A DNA stretch of 64,000 nt, from contig NZ_CP114786.1 in assembly GCF_027359675.1 (NCBI RefSeq), positions 2,826,501-2,890,500 of the forward strand. Reading direction: 5' to 3'. Both the position numbers and the translations under genes were made by a program. Source of the DNA: Roseibium sp. Sym1. GTDB taxonomy: Bacteria; Pseudomonadota; Alphaproteobacteria; Rhizobiales; Stappiaceae. How positions within the stretch are numbered: the first letter of the stretch is position 1; each line of letters starts with the position of its first letter. This document shows, piece after piece, positions 16,418 to 28,263 of the stretch. The notes below the pieces were generated by a model, which had not been told where the DNA came from, did no database searches, and saw nothing but the letters and a program-made list of their open reading frames with translations.

Positions 16418-16571
16418 AGACGCATTGCCGCATCTGGGGGAGCGTGTCCGCACGAGAGAATTTTCACGGGAAGCGTGCCGGATTTCACCGGGTTGTCAAA
16501 CGACCGTCGTTTCCTTCTAATCGATTTAGCAATGAGAGCGTCGCTCCGGCGACTTCATGAGGGAGATCTCC

Positions 16572-18452
16572 ATGGAGAACGGTCACGAGACCGGGAACGG
16601 TGTTGCCGCGCAGGTGTGTGACGTGGCGCCGGTGCCGGATGCTGAACTCGCGGCGATCTGCACGCGGTACGGCTGTGACAAGCACCGCATGCTGGATATC
16701 CTGCGGGAGGTGCAGGATCGCTACCGCTGTATCGCGCCTTCGACCATGGACCGGATTGCCGCCGGGACCGGCCTCACCCGGATCGAGGTGGAGGGGGTCG
16801 CCAGCTTCTATTCCTTCCTGTCGCTGACACCGAAAGGCCGGGTGACCATCCGCCTGTGCGACGACATCGTCGACCGCTACTCGGGGCTCGAAGCGGTGTC
16901 CGCCATCTTTGAAGAGGTGCTCGGTATCCGTATCGGCGAGACGTCCGCCGACGGCGCTTTCTCGCTGGAAGTCACACCCTGCATCGGCATGTGCGACCAG
17001 GCGCCCGCCGCCATGGTCAATGACGTGGTGTTGACGAGGCTCACACCCGAAACGGCGCGGGCAGCAGCCGAGGCGCTCAAAGCCGGTGAGGCACCGGAGC
17101 GGATCGTGAGCGAGCGTTTTTCCTCCCTGACGCCGCATGAGCGCGCGCTGCACATGGTCGACAACAACATCCGCCATGCCGGCGAAGTGCTGCTCGGACC
17201 GGTGCCGGAGGAGGCCGGGCTGAACAACGCCGTGTCGATGACGCCGGCACAGATCATCACCGCTGTCGAGGACAGCGGTCTGCGCGGATGTGGCGGCGCC
17301 GGGTTCACGACCGGCCGGAAATGGCGGTTTGCCGCCAGCGAGCGCGCCGAGAAGCATTTCGTCATCTGCAATGCCGATGAGGGCGAGCCGGGCACCTTCA
17401 AGGATCGCGTGCTACTGACCGAACGGCCGCACCTGCTGATCGAGGGCATGACCATTGCCGCCCGTGCGGTCGGGGCGCGGGAGGGCATCCTCTACCTGCG
17501 CGGCGAATATGTCTATCTGCGCGAGCTCCTTGAGCAGGTTCTGGAAGAGCGGCGGCGTCGCGGTCTGCTCGGCAAAGCGATCCTCGGCGTCAAGGGCTTC
17601 GATTTCGACATCCGCCTGCAACTCGGGGCGGGCGCCTATATCTGTGGCGAGGAAGGTGCCTTGATCAGCTCCTGCGAGGGACTGCCGGGCGAACCGAAGA
17701 CCCGGCCGCCTTTCCCGGTCAATCGCGGCTATCTCGGCTACCCGACGGTGGTCAACAACGTGGAGACCTTCTGCCATGCCGCCCGGATCCTGGACCGGGG
17801 CGCGAAGTGGTTCCACGCCATGGGCACGGAAGGTTCGCACGGCACCAAGCTGTTCTCCGTCTGCGGCGACTGCCTCAACCCGGGCATTTACGAGCTTCCC
17901 TATGGCCACACGGTGCGCGAGTTGCTGGAGATGGTCGGTGGCGGAGAGGCCGCCGCGGTGCAGGTCGGCGGCCCGAGCGGGACGATGATTGCCCGCGACA
18001 GCTTCCACCGCAAACTCACTTTCGACGATCTCGCCACCGGCGGCGCCATCATCATCTTCAACGGCGACCGCAACATTCTCGAGATCGTCGAATATTACAT
18101 GTCCTTCTTCGTGCATGAGAGCTGCGGTTATTGCACGCCCTGCCGGGTCGGCAATGTGTTCCTGCAAAAGGCGATCCAGAAATTCCGCAAGGGCCTCGCC
18201 AATCCGGAGGACATCGACTACCTCAAGGAGCTCTCCGGCACGATCATCGAGACCAGCCGCTGCGGTCTCGGCATGACCTCGCCCAACCCGATCCTGTCGA
18301 CCCTGAAGAACTTCCCGCTGGTCTACTCGGCGGTTTCCAAGCCGAGCAAGGACGGCATTCGCGACACGTTCGACATCCAGTCGGCCATTGATGGCGCGCG
18401 CAAGATCGCCAAGCGCCGCTCCTACATCTTCGACAAGGATTTCACCCAATGA
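16572..18452 (+). CDS. hoxF: NAD-reducing hydrogenase diaphorase subunit, HoxE-like domain fused
   Basis: A 626-residue subunit that passes electrons between NAD(H) and the iron-sulfur chain using FMN. Residues 20-180 are a NuoE/HoxE-like thioredoxin-fold domain; Cys96, Cys137 and Cys141 are seen, but the fourth usual ligand is Asp101 (C-x4-D instead of C-x4-C). Residues 230-600 are NuoF-like: RGCGGAGFTTGRKW binds FMN/NADH and ESCGYCTPCRVG plus SRCGLGM bind a 4Fe-4S cluster. ATG at 16572 follows AGGGAG; an earlier in-frame ATG is at 16557. It opens the five-gene hoxFUYHW operon and overlaps hoxU by four bases. Confidence 0.93.
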   Translation: MENGHETGNGVAAQVCDVAPVPDAELAAICTRYGCDKHRMLDILREVQDRYRCIAPSTMDRIAAGTGLTRIEVEGVASFYSFLSLTPKGRVTIRLCDDIVDRYSGLEAVSAIFEEVLGIRIGETSADGAFSLEVTPCIGMCDQAPAAMVNDVVLTRLTPETARAAAEALKAGEAPERIVSERFSSLTPHERALHMVDNNIRHAGEVLLGPVPEEAGLNNAVSMTPAQIITAVEDSGLRGCGGAGFTTGRKWRFAASERAEKHFVICNADEGEPGTFKDRVLLTERPHLLIEGMTIAARAVGAREGILYLRGEYVYLRELLEQVLEERRRRGLLGKAILGVKGFDFDIRLQLGAGAYICGEEGALISSCEGLPGEPKTRPPFPVNRGYLGYPTVVNNVETFCHAARILDRGAKWFHAMGTEGSHGTKLFSVCGDCLNPGIYELPYGHTVRELLEMVGGGEAAAVQVGGPSGTMIARDSFHRKLTFDDLATGGAIIIFNGDRNILEIVEYYMSFFVHESCGYCTPCRVGNVFLQKAIQKFRKGLANPEDIDYLKELSGTIIETSRCGLGMTSPNPILSTLKNFPLVYSAVSKPSKDGIRDTFDIQSAIDGARKIAKRRSYIFDKDFTQ

Positions 18453-19177
18453 GCGGCACCAAGAAAGAGACTGGCTTCACCTTCACCATCGATGGCATCG
18501 AAGTCACCGCCTATGCCGGTCAGACGATCATGGAAGCCGCCGACGAGGCCGGGGTCTATATCCCGCGCCTGTGCGACCACGAGGGCCTGCGCCACCAGGG
18601 CAGCTGCCGGGTGTGCACGGTGAAGGCGGGCGGGCGCAGCGTTGCCGCCTGCACCCAGCCGGCGGCACCCGGCCAGGCGGTCGAGAACGAGACCCCGCAC
18701 CTGACCAAGATGCGCCGGGATCTCGTGGAAATGCTGTTTCACGAGGGCAACCACCTCTGTCCGATCTGCGAGGCCAGCGGCAATTGCGAATTGCAGGCGA
18801 TGGCCTACCGGCTCGACATGACGGAGGCCACAAAGTTCCCGTATCTGGAGCCGTGCCGGGCGCTGGATGCGTCCCACCCGGACATCGCGCTGGACACGAA
18901 CCGCTGCATCTCCTGCGGGCGCTGCATCCGCGCCTCCCAGGACGTCGATGGCAAGGGCATCTTCGGCTATGTCGGCCGCGGCATTCACCGGCGTGTCGCC
19001 GTCAATGGCGAGAACCTGGCGGACACGGATGCCGAGGTCACGGACCACGCCATCAGCGCGGAGGTCTGCCCGGTCGGCTGCATCATCCGCAAGCGGGTCG
19101 GCTTTGCCGTCCCGATCGGCGAGCGCGAGTTCGACAAGGGCCTGATCGGTCATGACATCGAGGAGAAGCGCAAATGA
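18449..19177 (+). CDS. hoxU: NAD-reducing hydrogenase diaphorase subunit, NuoG-like
   Basis: A 242-residue iron-sulfur protein. The N-terminal ferredoxin-like domain has CDHEGLRHQGSCRVC and a later Cys in AACTQ for a 2Fe-2S cluster. HEGNHLCPICEASGNCELQ is the His-Cys 4Fe-4S motif, and CISCGRC with the later CPVGC forms another 4Fe-4S site. It matches the short N-terminal third of NuoG, as expected of HoxU (about 235-245 residues). It connects HoxF to the HoxYH hydrogenase part. It overlaps its neighbours by four bases on both sides. Confidence 0.93.
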   Translation: MSGTKKETGFTFTIDGIEVTAYAGQTIMEAADEAGVYIPRLCDHEGLRHQGSCRVCTVKAGGRSVAACTQPAAPGQAVENETPHLTKMRRDLVEMLFHEGNHLCPICEASGNCELQAMAYRLDMTEATKFPYLEPCRALDASHPDIALDTNRCISCGRCIRASQDVDGKGIFGYVGRGIHRRVAVNGENLADTDAEVTDHAISAEVCPVGCIIRKRVGFAVPIGEREFDKGLIGHDIEEKRK

Positions 19178-19743
19178 GCGAGCTGCCCAAGGCCCGGATC
19201 GCAACCGCCTCCCTTGCCGGCTGTTTTGGCTGCCACATGGCGATCCTCGATATCGACGAGCGGCTGATCGACCTGATGAAACTGGTCGATGTCGACCGTT
19301 CGCCGCTGACCGACAAGAAGCGCTTCACCCAGCGCTGCGACATCGGCATCATCGAAGGCGGCTGCTGCAACGAGGAAAACGTGCATGTGCTGCACGACTT
19401 CCGGCGCAATTGCGACGTGCTGATCGCGCTCGGCCAATGCGCGATCATGGGCGGGCTGCCGGCGATGCGCAACGCGATCATGCATTCCGACGCACCTCTG
19501 CGCGAGTGCCTCGACGAGGCCTACATCACCGGCAAGTATATCCGCAACACGACCCACAACGTGCCCAACGACCCGGCGCTGCCGCTGCTGCTGGACGAGG
19601 TCTATCCGTGTTCCCAGGTGGTCGAGATCGACTACCAGATCCCGGGCTGCGCCCCGACCGGCGACATCATTTTCGACACGCTCTCCAAGCTTCTGACCGG
19701 CAAGTTCCGGGGCTTTGAGCGTGACATGATCAAGTTTGACTGA
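19174..19743 (+). CDS. hoxY: NAD-reducing [NiFe]-hydrogenase small subunit
   Basis: A 189-residue subunit that carries the 4Fe-4S cluster next to the NiFe site. Cysteines lie in ASLAGCFGCHMAILD, EGGCCNEENVHVLHD and YQIPGCAPTGDIIF, the pattern of short group 3 small subunits without signal peptide, so it is cytoplasmic. ALGQCAIMGGLPAMRN is also typical. It overlaps hoxU by four bases and is followed after 14 bases by hoxH. Confidence 0.93.
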   Translation: MSELPKARIATASLAGCFGCHMAILDIDERLIDLMKLVDVDRSPLTDKKRFTQRCDIGIIEGGCCNEENVHVLHDFRRNCDVLIALGQCAIMGGLPAMRNAIMHSDAPLRECLDEAYITGKYIRNTTHNVPNDPALPLLLDEVYPCSQVVEIDYQIPGCAPTGDIIFDTLSKLLTGKFRGFERDMIKFD

Positions 19744-19757
19744 GGCGGGACGTCGTC

Positions 19758-21200
19758 ATGAGTGAATCCAGACTGATTGAAATCTCGCCGGTCACGCGCG
19801 TGGAAGGCCACGGCAAGGTCACCATCCATCTGAATGCCGACAACGAGGTCGACGAGGCCCGGCTGCACATAGTCGAGTTCCGCGGTTTCGAGCGGTTTAT
19901 CCGCGGACGGCTGATGTGGGAAGTGCCGGTGATCGTGCAGCGGCTCTGCGGCATCTGTCCGGTCAGCCATCACCTTGCGGCGGCAAAGGCCATGGACATG
20001 ATCGCCGGTGTCGACCAACTCACACCGACGGCGGAAAAGATGCGCCGGCTGATGCATTACGGCCAGGTGATGCAGTCCCACGTGCTGCACTTCTTCCACC
20101 TGGCCGCGCCGGATCTCCTGTTCGGCTTCGGCGCGCCGGCGGAGAAACGCAACATCTTCGAGGTGATCAAGGAGCAGCCCGAGCTGGGCAAACGCGCCGT
20201 CCTGATGCGCAAATACGGCCAGGAGATCATCGAGGCGACGGCCGGCAAGAAGATCCACGGCACCGGCGCCATTCCGGGCGGCATCAACCGCAACCTGTCC
20301 ACCGAGCGCCGCGATCATTTCCTCGCCTCCATCGACGAAATGATCGCGTGGGCGCAGGATGCGGTGAAGCTTGCCCGCGATTACACGCTCGAGCACGAGG
20401 ACCTGGTCTCCGAGTTCGGCTCGTTTCCGTCCAACTACATGTCGCTGGTGCGCGAGAGCGACGGGGCTCTCGATCTCTATCACGGCACTCTGAGGGCGCT
20501 CAGCTCGACCGGCGACACGATCTTCGACCAGGTGCCCTACACCAGGTATCACGAGCTGATCGTCGAGGACGTGCGCTCCTGGTCCTACATGAAGTTCCCC
20601 TTCATCAAGACACTCGGTCCCGACGCCGGCTGGTATCGGGTCGGGCCGCTGGCACGCATGAACACGGCCAGCTTCATCGACACGCCGCTGGCCAATGCGG
20701 CGCTTGCGGACCTGAAGGCGGTCACCTGTGGCACGCCGAACAACTCGACCCTTGCCAATCACTGGGCGCGCATGATCGAGGTGCTGCATTGTGTCGAGAA
20801 GATCCGCGAGCTCCTGAACGATCCGGACCTGCAGGGATCCGACCTGGTTGTCACCGGAGACCGGCGCGAGGAAGGTATCGGCGTCATCGAGGCGCCGCGG
20901 GGCAACCTCATTCATCACTACAAGGTCGACGAGCACGACCAGGTCACCTATTGCAACCTGATCGTCTCCACGACCCACAACAACGAGGGCATGAACCGGG
21001 CGGTGAAAGACGTGGCGGTCAAGCATCTCTCCGGCAGGGAGAAGATCACCGAGGGCATGCTCAACCATGTCGAGGTCGCCATCCGAGCCTATGACCCGTG
21101 CCTCTCCTGCGCCACCCACGCGCTCGGCCAGATGCCGCTGCAGGTGGAACTTTTCGGTGCCGACGGCACGCTGGTCGACAGCCAGACACAGTGCGTGTGA
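19758..21200 (+). CDS. hoxH: NAD-reducing [NiFe]-hydrogenase large subunit
   Basis: A 480-residue catalytic subunit that splits or makes H2. The nickel ligands are in RLCGICPVSHHL (Cys64, Cys67) and DPCLSCATH (Cys448, Cys451, His454). RVEGHGKVTIHL is the N-terminal L1 motif. The 26 residues after His454 (ALGQMPLQ ... TQCV) are the tail removed by the maturation protease encoded next. Subunit make-up marks a group 3d bidirectional hydrogenase, usually cytoplasmic and relatively oxygen tolerant. The Hyp proteins needed to build the metal centre are not in the window. Confidence 0.95.
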   Translation: MSESRLIEISPVTRVEGHGKVTIHLNADNEVDEARLHIVEFRGFERFIRGRLMWEVPVIVQRLCGICPVSHHLAAAKAMDMIAGVDQLTPTAEKMRRLMHYGQVMQSHVLHFFHLAAPDLLFGFGAPAEKRNIFEVIKEQPELGKRAVLMRKYGQEIIEATAGKKIHGTGAIPGGINRNLSTERRDHFLASIDEMIAWAQDAVKLARDYTLEHEDLVSEFGSFPSNYMSLVRESDGALDLYHGTLRALSSTGDTIFDQVPYTRYHELIVEDVRSWSYMKFPFIKTLGPDAGWYRVGPLARMNTASFIDTPLANAALADLKAVTCGTPNNSTLANHWARMIEVLHCVEKIRELLNDPDLQGSDLVVTGDRREEGIGVIEAPRGNLIHHYKVDEHDQVTYCNLIVSTTHNNEGMNRAVKDVAVKHLSGREKITEGMLNHVEVAIRAYDPCLSCATHALGQMPLQVELFGADGTLVDSQTQCV

Positions 21201-21210
21201 GGGTGTTGGA

Positions 21211-21669
21211 ATGCTGCTGATCGGCTACGGCAATCCGGGGCGCGGGGACGACGGGCTGGGGCCGGCCTTTTCCGAAGGCATGGCCGCGCGCGCTTTGCCG
21301 GGTCTTGAGGTCGATACCGACTACCAGCTGGTTGCCGAACATGCGCTGGCGGTTTCAGGCCATGACCTCGTGATCTTCGCGGATGCGGAGATGGGCGGCG
21401 AGGAAGCCTTTTCCTTCCGGGAAATCGCGCCGGGCGCTCCGGACGTGCTCGGAAGTCACAGCCTGGTTCCCGAAACGGTGCTGGCGCTCGCCGAAACGCT
21501 CTATGGTGCATGTCCGAAAGCCTTTGTGCTCGGCATTTCCGGGTATGAGTATGGTGAGGTGAAAGAGGGGCTGTCGGAGAAAGCCGGTGCAAACCTGGCA
21601 GCGGCGGAAGCCTTTTTTCTGGACTGGTTAGCCGGCGAAATATCTTCGCGCCACGCCGCCCACGCATGA
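21211..21669 (+). CDS. hoxW: hydrogenase maturation endopeptidase
   Basis: A 152-residue protease that trims the C-terminal tail of HoxH after nickel insertion. IGYGNPGRGDDGLGPAFSE at the N-terminus is the family motif with a metal-sensing Glu/Asp, FADAEM supplies the next acidic residue, and GSHSLVPETVL carries the conserved His. The ATG is 10 bases after the hoxH stop, with TTGGA directly before it. It ends the hydrogenase operon, which runs toward the minus-strand cluster. Confidence 0.9.
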   Translation: MLLIGYGNPGRGDDGLGPAFSEGMAARALPGLEVDTDYQLVAEHALAVSGHDLVIFADAEMGGEEAFSFREIAPGAPDVLGSHSLVPETVLALAETLYGACPKAFVLGISGYEYGEVKEGLSEKAGANLAAAEAFFLDWLAGEISSRHAAHA

Positions 21670-21749: not shown

Positions 21750-22025
21750 CTACCCGCCCTTGACCTTCAGCTTGCCGCTGTCCCTGCCGTTTTCGGTGTC
21801 GTTGGTCCAGGTGAGGCGCAGGTCGAGGCGGGACTGGTCGTCCTCCTGGGTGGCGGTGACACGCAGGGTGATCAGGCCCCTGGGCTCCAGGGTGATCTCG
21901 CCGGTGTCGTCGCCGAACTCGAGCTCACCCTTGGCAATGCCCCGCTTGACCGCGTCGAGCAGTTTCTGGATCGACTTCCTGTCCTGGAGAGACTGGTGCC
22001 GGAACCGGCCCTTGCGTTCCATCAT
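21750..22025 (-). CDS. amphi-Trp domain-like small protein
   Basis: A 91-residue protein. SIQKLLDAVKRGIAKGELEF is an amphipathic helix and GLITLRVTATQEDDQSRLDL leads to an RLTW motif, the helix-plus-strand layout of amphi-Trp domain proteins. That family co-occurs with the GAK gene set, which fits the genes upstream. It is the last gene of the cluster, overlapping the metallophosphatase stop codon (ATGATG start inside TGA). Function unknown. A second in-frame ATG follows immediately. Confidence 0.65.
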   Translation of the reverse strand: MMERKGRFRHQSLQDRKSIQKLLDAVKRGIAKGELEFGDDTGEITLEPRGLITLRVTATQEDDQSRLDLRLTWTNDTENGRDSGKLKVKGG

Positions 22026-23371
22026 CGCGACACTCCGTGCTGCTTCAGGATCTCAACCGGGTCGAACAGTTTGGCATGCGGATAGTCCCGGCTGAGGCCG
22101 AGAATATTGCCGCTGGGCGAGATGATCGTTGCCCCGGTGCCGATGCCGTCCAGACCTTCGGAGCTTCTGGAGTGGCGGTCAAGGGTGATGTCGGCCTCCA
22201 GGTGCAGGAGGCCCTGTCTGGAGGTCAGTTCCTGACCGCAGTGGCGGTTGATGTGACCCTGGACCAGGAGCTTGATGCCCGCCAGATGAAGCTCCTCGAC
22301 ACCGGCCTCGGTCAGCGGGTGATCGACATCCCGGTACTTGGTCCGCATCAGGTTGGCGATCGTGCCGGAATAGAAGACAAAGGGATCCTTGCGGCTTTCC
22401 TTCCGGAAGCGCCGGTTGACGTGATCGACGCCCTTTTTCGAGATCTGGGCGGACATCTGGTCGTCGATGCCGGCATGGACGAACAGCAGCGATCCGCTCT
22501 GGTGCACGGCCTTCATCTGCCGAAACAGCCACGCGTAACGGCCATCAGGCTCGATGAACAGCTCCCGGCATTTCAGCGCCGCGGCAAAAAGCTCCCGGAT
22601 CGACAGGCCGACTTCGGCGGCGTGGTCCGCGAACTTGTCGGTCTTTTTCTTCAGGCGTTGCATCTCCTTGCGGATCGCGGCGTCGTTCATGTAGGCCGCG
22701 GCCGCCTTCGGGAACTGCTTCGTCCATTTCCTGCCGGGCACCATCAGGCGCAGGCAGTCCATTTCGTCCGGAAGGTGGTCCAAGGCCGAGGATGCATCGA
22801 CATGGCGGTCGAAGATCTCCTTCAGCAGCGGCATCACCTTCTTGCCCATGCGCACGAACATGTGTGCGTTGAGCGAGCTGCGCTTCACGGTGAGCGCTTC
22901 CAGACCGAGAAAAAGCCGGAGGTCGTGATTGCCGGCGAGCAGCACCACGTCCGTGGATTTCATCAGGACGGCCAGGGCGTCGAGCAGGTCAAGATTGCTC
23001 GGGCCCTTGTCGAGGCAGTCGCCGCCGATGATGATCTGGCAGCTCCGCCCGAAGGGCGTGAGCTCGAACTCCGTCAGGCCCGTGCCCGTGCGGATGATCG
23101 CCCGCGCCGCCACGAGGGAGCGCAACAGGCTCTCGGCATCGGCATGCAGATCGGAAATGAAGATCACCGGCCTTGCCGGCCAGTCCCAGGGACCGAGCTC
23201 ATTGGCTTTGGCAAGGCTGGTGACGAGGTCCGGCGCGTTGTTGCAGGCAATAGGCAGGTCGTGTCCCTTTTCGATCGGCCAGGGCACACAGCTCTCGGGC
23301 AGGTCCAGGTCCCGGCTGTTGGTGCAGGCAATCGGCGGCAGCAGGGGGCTCAGGGGCGTGTCCGTCATCAT
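22022..23371 (-). CDS. calcineurin-like metallophosphatase
   Basis: About 449 residues from the first of two adjacent ATGs (23369-23371). Metal-binding motifs of the PPP/calcineurin-like fold are in order: FISDLHADAESLL (about 90), GGDCLDKGPSNLDLLD, LLAGNHDLRLFLG, FVHAGIDDQ and LVQGHINRHCG. The middle is expanded with a helical, Lys-rich insert (KKKTDKFADHAAEVG). It could remove phosphate from proteins or small molecules; the open frame extends upstream out of family context. It is 17 bases after the histidine phosphatase and overlaps the amphi-Trp gene. Confidence 0.82.
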   Translation of the reverse strand: MMTDTPLSPLLPPIACTNSRDLDLPESCVPWPIEKGHDLPIACNNAPDLVTSLAKANELGPWDWPARPVIFISDLHADAESLLRSLVAARAIIRTGTGLTEFELTPFGRSCQIIIGGDCLDKGPSNLDLLDALAVLMKSTDVVLLAGNHDLRLFLGLEALTVKRSSLNAHMFVRMGKKVMPLLKEIFDRHVDASSALDHLPDEMDCLRLMVPGRKWTKQFPKAAAAYMNDAAIRKEMQRLKKKTDKFADHAAEVGLSIRELFAAALKCRELFIEPDGRYAWLFRQMKAVHQSGSLLFVHAGIDDQMSAQISKKGVDHVNRRFRKESRKDPFVFYSGTIANLMRTKYRDVDHPLTEAGVEELHLAGIKLLVQGHINRHCGQELTSRQGLLHLEADITLDRHSRSSEGLDGIGTGATIISPSGNILGLSRDYPHAKLFDPVEILKQHGVSR

Positions 23372-23388
23372 TGGGCTTGGCGTTCCAA

Positions 23389-24090
23389 TCAGTCCAGTGC
23401 GGTTTCCAGAACCTGACGCTGTTTCCAGGCGCCGGCGACATGCGACCAGCCCGCGTCCGGGCTGAAACTCACGACAACGGGTCTTGCGTGGTGCATGCTG
23501 ACCTTGCGGATGTCGTCGAAAGCGAGCACGCCGAGATGGTGCGCGGCATGGCGGAAGGCCGCTCCATGGCCGACAAAGACCTGCGCGGTCACCCCGGGGT
23601 GGGCTGCCAGCGCGTCGAGCCGAGTCTCCAGGAAGGCGGCCACGCGCGCGCCGGCCTCCAGCAGGCTTTCGGCTCCCTGGGCGGGAAGCCTGTAATGGCT
23701 GTTCGATTTCCAGTCTTCGGGGGGCGGCGTGTAGCGCGGATCCTCGGCAAGCACCTGTTCGATCTCGGGGATGGTCAGGTTGGCAAAGGCGCCGACACTG
23801 CGCTCGGCAAGCGCCTCGTGCTCGGTCACGGTGACGTCCGCTCCCGTAGCTTCGGACAGGGATTGGCCGAGAAGCGTGGCCGTCTGCCAGGCGCGCTGCT
23901 GGCGCGAACACAGCACCTCCGGCACGAGGCGCCAGCCATGGTCTGCGGCAAGGGCCGCAATTTCGTGGCCCGCGTCGGCGGCCTGCCGCCTGCCGGCATC
24001 GGTCAGCTGAAACGGCTGCAGCGCGCTCGGCGTGCCGGGTTTCTGGTGATAGGCGCCGTGCCGCACGAGGATTGCAAAACGGTTGGTCAT
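23389..24090 (-). CDS. histidine phosphatase family protein
   Basis: A 233-residue protein of the phosphoglycerate-mutase/SixA superfamily. The catalytic RHG is in ILVRHGAYHQKPG, the second arginine is in LCSRQQRAWQTA, Glu is in EALAERSVG and the second His is in VFVGHGAAFRHA. The enzyme should take phosphate from a substrate through a phospho-histidine intermediate. It starts inside the stop codon of the HprK-related kinase gene (ATGA), so a phosphatase is translationally tied to a kinase. Confidence 0.88.
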   Translation of the reverse strand: MTNRFAILVRHGAYHQKPGTPSALQPFQLTDAGRRQAADAGHEIAALAADHGWRLVPEVLCSRQQRAWQTATLLGQSLSEATGADVTVTEHEALAERSVGAFANLTIPEIEQVLAEDPRYTPPPEDWKSNSHYRLPAQGAESLLEAGARVAAFLETRLDALAAHPGVTAQVFVGHGAAFRHAAHHLGVLAFDDIRKVSMHHARPVVVSFSPDAGWSHVAGAWKQRQVLETALD

Positions 24091-25187
24091 GGTTTCTGCC
24101 CCAGGAGATCGGCCCCTGCGTGGAACAGGGCGTCGAAATCAATGTTGCCCGTGACTTCCCAGACCTGCACGTCCCTTAATGCGTTCAGATAGGCCGGCGT
24201 ATCCATTTCCGAGTGGTCCGTCCAGAACATACCATTGGTGCCCTGAAAGAACGGGCCCGGACTTTTCATGATCGCGGTGAGGAGGTCGGGCCGGTTCTCC
24301 AGGTTGACCTGGCGGACATTTGTCGGTTCCACGCTGTCCCGAGACCAGTTCAGCACCCAGAAATCGGTCAGCCCTGCGTCATGGGAAATCCGGCCCGGGC
24401 CGTAGATGTCGTCGATGAAGAGGTCGTATTTTTCTTCCAGGTGCCAGAGTTCGTCCGGTTCGAGATTGCGCAGCTCTTCCTCGCGTTCCTCGTCGATGAG
24501 GCCGGCAAGGCGGGCATTGGTGACGATGGTGCCCGGATTGATGCGCGGCAGCTTTGGGATGCCGAGCGCGTCGGTGCGGTTGCCGGCATTGCGCACCAGC
24601 AGACGGTCATTGGTGACATAGTGCGTTCCGGCGATTTCCATCAGGCGCAGCATGGTCGTCGACTTGCCGCCGCCGGAGAGGCCGGAAATGGCCAGTCCCT
24701 TGTCAGCCATGCGAACCGCGGCCGCGTGGCAGGCGACCCATCCCTGCCGCTGGAAATGGTTGAGGATCTGGGTATTGACGAAGTTGATCACCTGGTTGGG
24801 ATAATCCTTCGTCGGACCGAAGGCGATCGCCCAGCCGGGCGCCTGCAGGAATTGCACGCCGGTGCGCACCTTCAGCACCATGCGCCCGTTGTCCAGGTCG
24901 CAGACGGCATCCTTGCGCCCGGTCTTGCCCGGTTCCCGGGCCCAGTCGGTGTAGGCCACCGTGAAGGGCAGGTCGGCTTCGCCCAGGACATGGACGGTCA
25001 GGTCCGGTTCCGAGGGTGCGGAAATGACGTGCTGGAAGTAGCGCAGGAGTTCGGCCAGCAGCGTGTCCGACATGCAGCGGACTTCAATGACCAGCCCGCC
25101 GACAGTGAGACACACCGGGTCTGAGGCCTGGGTCTCGCGTACCGGCGCGAGCGCATCGACAACGTCCTGAACGCTGATGCCGGTCAT
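24087..25187 (-). CDS. HprK-related kinase B
   Basis: A 366-residue protein related to HPr kinase/phosphorylase. The P-loop GLSGGGKST is at 169-177, preceded by the His of WVACHAAAV and followed by THYVTNDRLL, which matches the Asp/Asn strand of HprK. The N-terminal 160 residues differ from true HprK. A large insert (LRNLEPDELWHLEEKYDLF) follows the core. No HPr is encoded nearby, so the acceptor is unknown; a protein of this operon is a good candidate. It overlaps both neighbours by four bases. The HprK-related kinase B family is part of the GAK gene set. Confidence 0.8.
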   Translation of the reverse strand: MTGISVQDVVDALAPVRETQASDPVCLTVGGLVIEVRCMSDTLLAELLRYFQHVISAPSEPDLTVHVLGEADLPFTVAYTDWAREPGKTGRKDAVCDLDNGRMVLKVRTGVQFLQAPGWAIAFGPTKDYPNQVINFVNTQILNHFQRQGWVACHAAAVRMADKGLAISGLSGGGKSTTMLRLMEIAGTHYVTNDRLLVRNAGNRTDALGIPKLPRINPGTIVTNARLAGLIDEEREEELRNLEPDELWHLEEKYDLFIDDIYGPGRISHDAGLTDFWVLNWSRDSVEPTNVRQVNLENRPDLLTAIMKSPGPFFQGTNGMFWTDHSEMDTPAYLNALRDVQVWEVTGNIDFDALFHAGADLLGQKP

Positions 25188-26074
25188 GCGCGCACCCTTT
25201 CAATCACGTGGTTTGCGTAAAGCGTTGCCGCGTCGATGGAGGCGCCCTCGAGCGCGCCCCTGAAGCCGCCAAAGGCGGAGACTTCGAAGATGACCGGGCC
25301 GGCATCCGTCAGTCCGACGTCAACCGTGGTGAAATCGAGCTCGAAGGGCGCCTGGGCGCGCCGGGCCAGCTCGACCAGATCCGCATCCGGTTCGAAGGGC
25401 TCGTATTTGCCGCCATGGAGAATGGTCGTGTTCCAGCTGTCGGTCTGGGCGACGCGGGCATAGGTGCCAAGGTATTTGCCGCCGAGGAACACCATGCCGA
25501 GATCGCGGCCCGAAAGATTGACCTTCTGCTGCAGGTACATCACCGGGTTGTCGGCCTTGAAGGCCTCGATCTTCCGCCGGAGCGCCGCTTCGTCTTCGCC
25601 GCCATCCATCAGCGACATGCCGCGGGCCTTGGTGGAGAACAGCGGCTTGAACACCGCGCCACCGAAGCGCCGCACGGCGGCAAGAGCCAGGTCGACGCTT
25701 TCCGTGACGCAGGTCGCCGGCATCGGCATGCCGGCATTGGCGAGCGTCACGGTGCAGCTCAGGCGGTTGACAAGGCCGAGGATGGACTGCGTGGACGAAA
25801 AGACCCTCACGCCCGCGGCTTCGGCGACGCGCAGCATCTCAAGCCGGTCAAGTGTCGCCGGACTGTACTGTTGGCTGATCTTCTTGATCACCAGGCCATC
25901 GAGCTTGCAGAGGTCGGTGGCCCCTGACATCAGCGCGCGGTTTTCCAGATCGAGCGCAACATCGGCCATGTCGACCACGCAGCGGTAGCCGGTTTCCTTT
26001 TCCAGTGCATCGGCGAGAACCTCGGTCGACCACTTTCCCGGAATGCCGATGACGCCGATTTTCAGGTCAGTCAA
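25184..26074 (-). CDS. ATP-grasp enzyme, GAK-system type
   Basis: A 296-residue protein. It starts KIGVIGIPGKWSTEVLADAL, then FKPLFSTKARGMSLMD and VMYLQQKVNLSGRDLGMVFL form the ATP-grasp core, and VDVGLTDAGPVIFEVSAFGG is the metal-binding C-terminal block. It resembles RimK/glutathione-synthetase-like ligases that join a carboxylate to an amine through an acyl phosphate. The substrate is unknown. ATGA overlap with the kinase gene downstream and an 8-base overlap upstream show tight coupling. The closest named family I recall is the GAK-system ATP-grasp. Confidence 0.8.
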   Translation of the reverse strand: MTDLKIGVIGIPGKWSTEVLADALEKETGYRCVVDMADVALDLENRALMSGATDLCKLDGLVIKKISQQYSPATLDRLEMLRVAEAAGVRVFSSTQSILGLVNRLSCTVTLANAGMPMPATCVTESVDLALAAVRRFGGAVFKPLFSTKARGMSLMDGGEDEAALRRKIEAFKADNPVMYLQQKVNLSGRDLGMVFLGGKYLGTYARVAQTDSWNTTILHGGKYEPFEPDADLVELARRAQAPFELDFTTVDVGLTDAGPVIFEVSAFGGFRGALEGASIDAATLYANHVIERVRA

Positions 26075-27701
26075 CGAAGAGCTCCTTCATCTGAAGCCGG
26101 AAGCGGGCTTCATCGCCGGGCGGGCAGGCAAGCGCCTGTTCGATCAGGTAGCGGGCGCGCAGCCACATCCGCCTTGCATGGGACTTGTCGAAAATGAACC
26201 GGGTGGAACTGGCGAAGGACCGGGCAAGTCCGAGCGCCAGCCGGTATTCGAACGTCGCGTCGCCCTGCTTGCGGGCAAACCCCCTGGCGGATTTGTAGAA
26301 GTCCTGGGAGACCTGCATGATCCGCCGGCGCGTCTCGCGGTCGAGCACCTGCAGCCGGTAGTTGGAGACCATGAACACCGAGACATCCTGAACATAGTCC
26401 ATGTAGCGCGACCGGTGCAGGTCGATGAAATGGACCCGGTCCTCGCCGGGGTCGTAAAGGATGTTGTCGACATTGAAGTCGCCGTGGATATGGACCGAGA
26501 ACGGTGCGGGGACCCTGGTCTCCCGTTCGGCGGCCTGGTCGATCAGCTTGTCGAATGACGGCAGGACCTCGCCGGAGAAGCTGACCTTGCGGTCCTTGAA
26601 TTCCGGATGGACCCGGCGCACGTCCCCGAGCCTCCTGGCAAGCTGTTGCATGCTGGCCAGTTCCGCCGGTTCGCCGGTCCTGGTCTGTTTCCAGATGTCC
26701 CGGAGTGTCCGGTTGAGTCGCTTGAGTGCGCAGGTGCAAAGGGTCTCGTTTCCGCTCAGGACGATATGTTCGAACGTCTGGCCGGGCAGATGTTCGATCA
26801 GAAGGGCTGCGGACCGGTCGCCTTTCTCGTAGGACAGGATCTTCGGGGCAAGGCCCGGATAGATCGAGTGCCAGCTTTTCACCCCCTGGCGCTCTTCCTT
26901 CACCTTGCTTTTCTCACCGTCCTTGAAGACCGCCGCGACCTCTTCGGTCTTGCGGTCCTTGATGGCCGAGATGGAACTGCCGGAGCGGGTCTCGGCAATG
27001 GTCTCGACGGTCAGGTCGCCGCCCGGTCCGTCCAGGTCCGACATCAGGCTCTGAAGCGCGAAATAGCGTTCGAAATTGACCGCCTGGCCGATATTGGCGG
27101 AGATCAGGGCCTCGCTGATCGAGCGCAGCGAGTCGCCCATGCGCTGGATCTCGCTGGCGACCAGCAGGCTGTTGGCGATGTCGGCCGGCCGGATTTTCGT
27201 GTTGCGCATCTCCCGGGTGTAGGTCTTGAACAGCTTGCGGTAGTCGGCCTCGATCCTGTCCTGAAGCTGGCCGATCCCGATCGCCAACTCACTGTCGCCG
27301 CTGACAAGTGCCTGCTCGATGCGGGCAACTCCGCCGCGGACCCGTTTGACGATGGCCGGGTAACGCTGCGGCTCCAGCGCTTCGAACTCTTCGATCTGCT
27401 CGACATGGTGCAGGGACTGGCGTGCCAGGTTGGACAGGCGCTGCAGGTCGGAGGCGATCAGTTCCAGGCTGCGCAGGGTGATGTGTTTGCGGTTGGTCGT
27501 CTTCGCGCCGCTCATCTGGCGCACGCAGGCGGCGAGGATGCGCGTCTTCAGGTTATGGGCATATCCGGCCCGGTCCATGATCCGGCGCGCGGTCGCAGCC
27601 GTCGGCTCCTTGAAGAAGGCCTCAAGCTGGATCAGCTGACCGTCAATCTCCGCGCACAGGAAATGGAGATTTTCACGGATAATCTTCGGTATGTTAGTCA
27701 T
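26067..27701 (-). CDS. PhoU-like / aminoglycoside-phosphotransferase-like fusion kinase
   Basis: 544 residues from the ATG at 27699-27701, which overlaps the Nudix stop by eight bases; this overlap decides the start against a longer in-frame reading to 27842. Residues 1-215 are helical and PhoU-like, with paired motifs ASDLQRLSNLARQSL and ASEIQRMGDSLRSISEAL. Residues 260-540 look like an aminoglycoside/choline phosphotransferase: a Lys-rich ATP region, the catalytic HIHGDFNVDNILYD and the metal-binding FIDLHRSRYMDYVQD. A PhoU-like sensor or scaffold joined to a small-molecule kinase is unusual. The substrate is unknown. Confidence 0.75.
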   Translation of the reverse strand: MTNIPKIIRENLHFLCAEIDGQLIQLEAFFKEPTAATARRIMDRAGYAHNLKTRILAACVRQMSGAKTTNRKHITLRSLELIASDLQRLSNLARQSLHHVEQIEEFEALEPQRYPAIVKRVRGGVARIEQALVSGDSELAIGIGQLQDRIEADYRKLFKTYTREMRNTKIRPADIANSLLVASEIQRMGDSLRSISEALISANIGQAVNFERYFALQSLMSDLDGPGGDLTVETIAETRSGSSISAIKDRKTEEVAAVFKDGEKSKVKEERQGVKSWHSIYPGLAPKILSYEKGDRSAALLIEHLPGQTFEHIVLSGNETLCTCALKRLNRTLRDIWKQTRTGEPAELASMQQLARRLGDVRRVHPEFKDRKVSFSGEVLPSFDKLIDQAAERETRVPAPFSVHIHGDFNVDNILYDPGEDRVHFIDLHRSRYMDYVQDVSVFMVSNYRLQVLDRETRRRIMQVSQDFYKSARGFARKQGDATFEYRLALGLARSFASSTRFIFDKSHARRMWLRARYLIEQALACPPGDEARFRLQMKELFVD

Positions 27702-28263
27702 CGTGAGGCCCGAGATAGACTTTGGGCACCCGCGTACAGCCAACTGGAAACAGTTTTGTGACATAAAGCGGACGTAGCAGCGCCGCGTCCTCGGCGGTGA
27801 TCCACCTGGTGGCAACCTGATGCGGATCCGGATGGTCTCCAAGCATTGGTTGATAGCTCTGCGGGACGGTGCATTCGAAGATCAGATCGAGCTGGTGCTG
27901 GCGCTCCATGCCGTCCGATTTCGCTCGGTAGAGATCAGCTACATGCCGCAAGTCGCCAACTGTCACCTCCGCGCCGATTTCCTCCAGGCACTCGCGTTGC
28001 AGGGTCGCTTCCAGGTCTTCGCCTGGCTCCTGCTTTCCGCCCGGCAAGGTGTAGTAAACCCCTTTCACCGGATGGTTTTTTTCCTGCACCAGCAAGTGCT
28101 CGCCGCGCAGGATGAAGGCGCGCGGTGTCGCGCGGATGAGCGGGCGAAACGGTGGAGAGGAAAGGTCGCTGGAGATCGTGCTGCGTCCTTTGTCTGTCGC
28201 GGCATCGGGCCGCGGGGGGGGCGGTCTCGGTGCCATACCATGACGCCGCATCTGTGCCGACAC
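27694..28263 (-). CDS. Nudix hydrolase
   Basis: A 189-residue protein. The Nudix box GGKQEPGEDLEATLQRECLE then EIGAEV is complete, with the catalytic glutamates. The rest matches ADP-ribose/NDP-sugar-type Nudix proteins of about 150 residues (RATPRAFILRGEHLLVQEK at the start of the fold). The first 40 residues are proline-rich and unconserved in appearance; the GTG at 28263 may be too early and an ATG at 28251 or 28236 is possible. It leads the seven-gene phosphate-chemistry operon. Confidence 0.85.
   Translation of the reverse strand: MSAQMRRHGMAPRPPPPRPDAATDKGRSTISSDLSSPPFRPLIRATPRAFILRGEHLLVQEKNHPVKGVYYTLPGGKQEPGEDLEATLQRECLEEIGAEVTVGDLRHVADLYRAKSDGMERQHQLDLIFECTVPQSYQPMLGDHPDPHQVATRWITAEDAALLRPLYVTKLFPVGCTRVPKVYLGPHDD

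Follow-up and report, generated by a model that had tools for sequence, protein, structure and literature searches.

The stretch of DNA analysed here (the window: 64,000 nucleotides of Roseibium sp. Sym1, contig NZ_CP114786.1, positions 2,826,501 to 2,890,500) carries on its minus strand, at window positions 21750-28263, seven open reading frames (ORFs) whose transcription starts with a Nudix hydrolase gene and ends with the gene of an amphi-Trp domain protein. The curated family models identify this operon as a GAK gene set, in its alphaproteobacterial form, and a tentative case can be made that it serves phosphate homeostasis. In the order of transcription, the genes are:

27694..28263, minus strand: gene 1, a Nudix hydrolase with the Nudix box present (Pfam NUDIX, 1.4e-15)
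26067..27701, minus strand: fusion of a PhoU domain and an APH-type kinase (PhoU-APH), 544 amino acids (Pfam PhoU, 2.7e-9; APH, 4e-11)
25184..26074, minus strand: GAK system ATP-grasp protein, 296 amino acids (NCBIfam TIGR04356, grasp_GAK, 450.6 bits, cut-off 300)
24087..25187, minus strand: HprK-related kinase B (HprK-B), 366 amino acids, with a PEPCK/HprK-like fold (TIGR04355, HprK_rel_B, 317.2 bits, cut-off 200)
23389..24090, minus strand: branch-1 histidine phosphatase, 233 amino acids, with an RHG motif (Pfam His_Phos_1, 1e-21)
22022..23371, minus strand: calcineurin-like/ApaH-like metallophosphatase, 449 amino acids (Pfam Metallophos, 1.1e-5)
21750..22025, minus strand: amphi-Trp domain protein, 91 amino acids, the last gene (TIGR04354, 64.0 bits, cut-off 31)

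Read in the same order, the junctions are overlaps of 8, 8, 4 and 4 bases, a gap of 17 bases and an overlap of 4 bases. A first-pass annotation of this DNA had described overlaps of 3-8 bases and one 17-base gap, which is nearly exact: the gap has this length, while the overlaps measure 4-8 bases. Its list of seven genes on one strand holds, with all families matched by NCBIfam or Pfam models. The Nudix gene starts with GTG at 28263, the alternatives being ATG at 28251 or 28236.

The likeness to the GAK gene set, which the first-pass annotation had also proposed, is borne out by grasp_GAK, HprK_rel_B and amphi-Trp, all of which exceed the NCBIfam cut-offs. With the GAK system as modelled in NCBIfam (TIGR04354-TIGR04358) our locus thus shares three operon members and, in the same genome, CofD_rel_GAK. 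It differs in three respects: the CofD-like gene is displaced by 37 kb; the XXXCH member has no match in the genome, a weak negative (the same search matched nothing in 14 control genomes either); and the Nudix, PhoU-APH, histidine phosphatase and metallophosphatase genes match no GAK-named model. The CofD-like match (TIGR04357, 485.9 bits, cut-off 340) lies about 37 kb from the operon at G000:C1:2809731-2810822, in a gene at G000:C1:2809650-2810831 (L005 13651-14832) beside a glycerate-kinase-like gene, so that the earlier remark on the absence of a CofD-like member applies to the window but not to the genome. The scan of this gene's surroundings, which include a glycerate-kinase-like gene, an AMP-binding enzyme and sugar transport genes among others, showed no further GAK gene. 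No publication using the GAK names or model numbers was found in the searched literature, outside which lie most subscription papers and all bioRxiv preprints, and queries pairing these families with the Pho regulon turned up no paper naming the operon or a phosphate role. The named set is already known; the enlarged gene set and the phosphate association described below are new as far as these literature searches go.

Is this arrangement a common feature of GAK loci? To answer this question, we compared 84 relatives' loci, namely the best 80 of 319 relatives from a genome scan and four plasmid loci, with cut contigs included in the counts. The ATP-grasp gene is present in all 84, PhoU-APH in 83, HprK-B in 80, the histidine phosphatase and the metallophosphatase in 79 each, amphi-Trp in 73, Nudix in 54 and CofD, standing divergently beside the operon, in 44. 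For the Roseibium-type loci nearest to the window's own (16 loci: L042-L056, L059), CofD is not inside the fetched flanks. The six genes that run from PhoU-APH to amphi-Trp are all present in 71 loci and, in 70 of these, stand on one strand and in the window's order, across Alpha- and Gammaproteobacteria and a planctomycete. Because the order is kept in 70 of the 71 full loci, the operon arrangement is not a matter of chance. Counting whichever members are present, 82 of the 84 loci follow the window's order, the exceptions being L081 and L110 (the latter without amphi-Trp). The neighbourhood is thus conserved well beyond close relatives. The junctions are conserved as well: the 8-base overlap between PhoU-APH and ATP-grasp is kept in 78 of 83 loci, and at the junction between histidine phosphatase and metallophosphatase, where the window has its single gap, an overlap was seen in just 1 of 78, which makes a gap the normal state. 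A Nudix gene is usually first in the relatives' loci, and 38 of the 84 also encode a histidine phosphatase fused to a Nudix domain, in 31 cases after HprK-B. The recurring set is therefore larger than the list first given. The planctomycete loci L142, L143 and L144 have two amphi-Trp genes each, in L142 and L144 with both copies between PhoU-APH and the metallophosphatase. PhoU-APH is split over two frames in L067 (8339-10008, Marinomonas) and in L073 (8366-10005, a tubeworm symbiont).

The ATP-grasp gene was found in 31 of 101 relatives, the window genome included: 31 of 45 in its own genus and 0 of 56 outside it. In wider samples it occurs in 2 of 385 genomes of the class (one being the window genome), over the cut-off in 13 of 369 gammaproteobacterial genomes (3 of these already among the earlier-collected loci), and over the cut-off in 6 of 392 genomes of the planctomycete phylum (one being the sample centre), with 9 more below it. 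These nine planctomycete-phylum genomes (L133-L141) carry near full-length ATP-grasp proteins of about 142-151 bits to grasp_GAK, which by sequence are possibly a sister family. The gene further occurs on five plasmid records, and the annotation of four of them names GAK members. On the Tritonibacter plasmids L038 and L041 the GAK operon adjoins a cluster with KAS III, acyl carrier and acyl-CoA dehydrogenase genes. One locus, L071, lies on a contig titled as a 'Halobacteria archaeon' metagenome-assembled genome and groups with gammaproteobacterial loci; the archaeal title is perhaps a binning error.

The gene set, its order and its neighbours are directly observed, as are its motifs and, in part, its folds. 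The ATP-grasp protein has the motif FEVSAFGG in 85 of 85 sequences, where the RimK counterpart reads EVNASPG, and a serine, Ser266, thus replaces, in every sequence, the asparagine that binds metal in the RimK-type motif. Its nearest solved structure is RimK (4iwx), and its 11 PDB matches include no inositol kinase. It shares fold family and length with the RimK/MptN/LysX ligases, but falls below their curated cut-offs and has serine where RimK has asparagine. We rejected an assignment as a RimK-family glutamate ligase, with 94.1 bits to the model TIGR00768 against a cut-off of 143.4 and E-V-S instead of E-x-N. Rejected as well was F420 or methanopterin biosynthesis proper, the protein scoring below cut-off both for MptN (4.6e-39) and for CofF, which it matches weakly.

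The kinase and phosphatase motifs are mostly intact. The HGDxxxxN motif of PhoU-APH is present in 83 of 84 sequences, the strict P-loop pattern of HprK-B in 75 of 81 and the strict Nudix box in 45 of 55; the metallophosphatase has GD..D.G and GNH[DE] each in 79 of 80 sequences and D[LVIM]H in 53 of 80, and the histidine phosphatase has RH in 80 of 80 and the RHG-type pattern in 75 of 80. In the amphi-Trp protein F8, H10, S12, L13 and W73 are invariant in 32 aligned sequences; its structural model is weak (predicted local distance difference test, pLDDT, 55.9).

The name HprK-related kinase, given in the first-pass annotation, is right in that HprK_rel_B scores over its cut-off, but the protein is not an HPr kinase by the model TIGR00679 (13.6 bits, cut-off 240), an assignment that we rejected on this ground, and its confident model aligns with PEP carboxykinase over a greater length than with HprK. 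A Foldseek search with this AlphaFold model (pLDDT 93.1) returned PEP carboxykinases best (1e-7 over about 400 columns, with a high root-mean-square deviation, rmsd) and HprK second (3e-6, about 230 columns, target template modelling score about 0.5, rmsd about 8). The P-loop kinase fold is common to HprK-B, HPr kinase/phosphorylase and PEP carboxykinase, whereas HprK-B has N-D-[RK] in 80 of 81 sequences where the HprK of the window genome, aligned by eye, has D-D. A comparison of the HprK and HprK-B profiles aligned 35 columns around the P-loop with a probability of 43%, and a PDB sequence search with the HprK-B and amphi-Trp profiles gave at best P-loop stretches or chance-like matches, with HprK only at E 0.54. 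Because the HPr kinase model failed and the alignment with PEP carboxykinase is longer, a protein substrate for HprK-B cannot be assumed.

What lies beside these loci? We scored as Pho-type genes the Na/Pi symporter, CHAD, Pst/PhoU, PPK1 and phytase in the locus flanks, and found such a gene in 16 of 84 GAK loci. Of 39 control stretches taken from GAK genomes, 1 carried such a gene; this control set is small and uneven (0.56 Mb in 1-20 kb pieces, against 1.55 Mb). A phytase in L078 was rejected and this locus is excluded from the count, as Pfam finds Ig-like and TSP3 repeats there but no phytase domain. The Na/Pi symporter, with a PhoU tail among the flanking clusters, is found in 10 of the 84 loci, PPK1 in 3, pst genes in L082 and L112, and phytase in one (L110). 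A set of 36 E. coli control proteins, mostly housekeeping, had no match in the 84 loci. The symporter is present in 13 of 16 GAK genomes and is less telling as a neighbour because there is often more than one copy per genome. CHAD is single-copy in 14 of these 16 genomes and was not found in the other 2. It occurs in 8 of the 84 loci, which represent three lineages at 75% ATP-grasp identity, a placement with a rough Poisson P of 0.0004 (3 of 30 lineages, one CHAD per 4 Mb assumed). L114 has CofD, CHAD and ParA on one strand, touching or overlapping one another, and in L115 CHAD comes after CofD. The planctomycete L112 has CHAD some 180 bases upstream of PhoU-APH, and the remaining five loci have it at a greater distance. 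Pairs of CHAD and a ParA-like ATPase were seen in seven loci (L071, L075, L079, L081, L101, L114 and L115), with the two ORFs overlapping by 4 bases in L114 and L115.

A search with what we take to be the Pho box consensus found box-like repeats at the expected 11-base period in 7 of the 44 intergenic regions beside CofD, in each case on the operon strand; L092 and L106 are among the loci with such a site. Thirteen other periods gave 0-5 regions, 2.6 on average, and permuted units averaged 0.8 with at most 5. As sequence patterns, these repeats are no more than suggestive of a Pho regulation of GAK loci. Apparent sites in the Roseibium loci L056 and L059 were not counted, as they seemingly lie inside the Nudix coding sequence.

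Because the phosphate and polyphosphate neighbours of some loci suggest such a frame, we tentatively favour, at somewhat short of an even chance, the reading that GAK serves phosphate homeostasis by attaching phosphate-linked groups to a substrate and removing them, the sensor being probably the PhoU half of PhoU-APH. That a PhoU domain forms part of a core GAK protein counts for this reading. We infer the function, the substrate, the direction, the sensing and every step of the mechanism, which might run as follows. The operon would build, and under other conditions dismantle, a phosphorylated compound, either a small molecule or a small protein, that would hold phosphate in reserve or signal the phosphate status. 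The PhoU half would sense phosphate or polyphosphate and set the kinase half. The APH kinase, the PEPCK/HprK-fold kinase and the ATP-grasp enzyme could together activate and modify the substrate, and the CofD/YvcK-like protein could supply or bind a nucleotide-linked group. The groups would be stripped again by the Nudix, histidine phosphatase and metallophosphatase enzymes, joined in 38 of 84 loci by the histidine phosphatase-Nudix fusion, and amphi-Trp may be a small partner or carrier.

A number of observations weigh against phosphate homeostasis. The near flanks of the window operon, as scanned, hold hydrogenase genes and an RpiR-family regulator and nothing phosphate-related; the CHAD gene of the window genome lies elsewhere, and the best Pho box site upstream of the window operon (9/14) is no better than those in shuffled upstream regions of other loci. 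Within the genus, CHAD does not track GAK, being single-copy in 45 of 45 genomes where GAK is in 31 of 45, and we set co-occurrence there aside as uninformative. The pattern E..[MI]GD, presumably PhoU-type, is present in only 18 of 84 PhoU-APH proteins, and ppx has no match in any of the 84 loci. The profiles for CHAD, Na/Pi and other neighbours derive from proteins that first came to light in the very loci being scored, which tilts the count in their favour. With only the Pho set of E. coli, the P values are 0.11-0.23 and not significant. In a later set, collected after the idea had formed, a Pho-type gene stood in 1 of 16 GAK loci, effectively 1 of 15 with L169 duplicating L105, the sole positive being L143 (PstS and PhoU). 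Grouping the loci by ATP-grasp identity, without L078, leaves 5 of 30 groups positive at 75% (P 0.051), 7 of 45 at 80% (P 0.046) and 13 of 72 at 85% (P 0.015), an excess that is borderline overall; with L078 counted, the P values are 0.023, 0.025 and 0.009. Finally, 13 of the 17 positive loci (L143 included, L078 excluded) fall in one gammaproteobacterial cluster at 75%.

This clustering, together with the later set and the borderline P after grouping, speaks for an alternative in which the phosphate neighbours are chance companions, mainly of one gammaproteobacterial lineage, and GAK has no phosphate function. Such hitch-hiking, which overlaps the two alternatives that follow, is doubtful, if quite conceivable: positive loci also occur in an alphaproteobacterium (L114), in Ketobacter (L082) and in two planctomycetes (L112, L143), and PhoU is fused into a core gene. 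We regard as rather unlikely that the operon makes a cofactor or a peptide-like compound with no link to phosphate status, by CofD-like transfer and MptN/CofF-like ligation as in the F420 and methanopterin routes, the kinases and phosphatases being pathway steps. The sequence matches of the ATP-grasp protein to MptN and CofF point this way, as do those of the CofD-like partner to the CofD and YvcK families; but the former lie below cut-off, the latter finds YvcK-type (UPF0052) structures in the PDB, the ATP-grasp serine is invariant, and no other cofactor gene was seen among the annotated part of the flanking clusters.

The first-pass annotation had pictured phosphorylation as a reversible switch on an ATP-grasp ligation. 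In the form considered here, either the HprK-like or the APH-like kinase would phosphorylate another member, amphi-Trp or the ATP-grasp protein, the phosphatases would undo this, and an amino-acid ligation by the ATP-grasp enzyme would be gated. The opposed gene types are real and their motifs mostly intact, but nothing was found showing that phosphorylation controls the ATP-grasp enzyme. A related HprK fold, an ATP-grasp protein closest by sequence to RimK-type glutamate ligases, and a small amphi-Trp protein, present in 73 of 84 loci with an invariant histidine and serine near its N-terminus in the aligned sequences, agree with such a switch. It is nonetheless unlikely, as HprK-B fails the HPr kinase model and aligns over a longer range with PEPCK, a small-molecule enzyme; the amphi-Trp serine is an alanine in the planctomycete L142, whose second copy is without the motif; and three phosphatase-type families, Nudix included, exceed the needs of a protein switch. 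If the phosphate homeostasis reading is true, it would add a phosphate-status circuit found in many marine bacteria. A core of seven to nine conserved genes, a PhoU-kinase fusion among them, together with the phosphate or polyphosphate genes that adjoin it in several lineages, makes 'function unknown' directly testable under phosphate limitation.

Beside the operon, a [NiFe] hydrogenase cluster of the NAD-reducing type, which we take to be the 'Hox' type, occupies window positions 16557-21669 on the plus strand and converges on it. In a 631-amino-acid ORF of this cluster, 2Fe-2S thioredoxin-like and 51K FMN domains are both present.

How does the GAK set compare with known phosphate systems? 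According to the accessible part of one report, CHAD is a polyphosphate-binding module, and Streptomyces has a ppk-pptA(CHAD)-Nudix operon just upstream of the pst genes under the control of PhoR/PhoP (PMC8003754). CHAD and Nudix genes there stand with ppk and near pst, which resembles some of our loci, but that part of the report describes no ATP-grasp, HprK-like or PhoU-APH member, and CHAD stands beside GAK only now and then. Polyphosphatase activity has also been reported for Nudix enzymes (PMC6522730). In eukaryotes, PPIP5K joins an ATP-grasp kinase with a histidine phosphatase in phosphate homeostasis, as given in the consulted part of PMC11836120, and a Nudix pyrophosphatase appears in the inositol-pyrophosphate circuit by a title cited in the same paper. 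As far as these excerpts go, ATP-grasp, histidine phosphatase and Nudix enzymes thus meet in one phosphate-homeostasis circuit, as they may in GAK. The phosphatase of PPIP5K is of branch 2, however, whereas that of GAK is of branch 1, and the GAK ATP-grasp protein is nearest to RimK, not to an inositol kinase; the parallel is a comparison of parts and not of membership. It is very improbable, though worth stating as one reading, that GAK is the bacterial counterpart of the eukaryotic inositol-pyrophosphate circuit. The ATP-grasp enzyme, with serine at its metal site, would then have turned kinase and act alongside the PEPCK-like and APH kinases, with the ApaH-like, Nudix and histidine phosphatase enzymes working against them; the product, a messenger or store bearing many phosphates, would report phosphate status through PhoU, and the whole would belong to the same economy as CHAD-bound polyphosphate.

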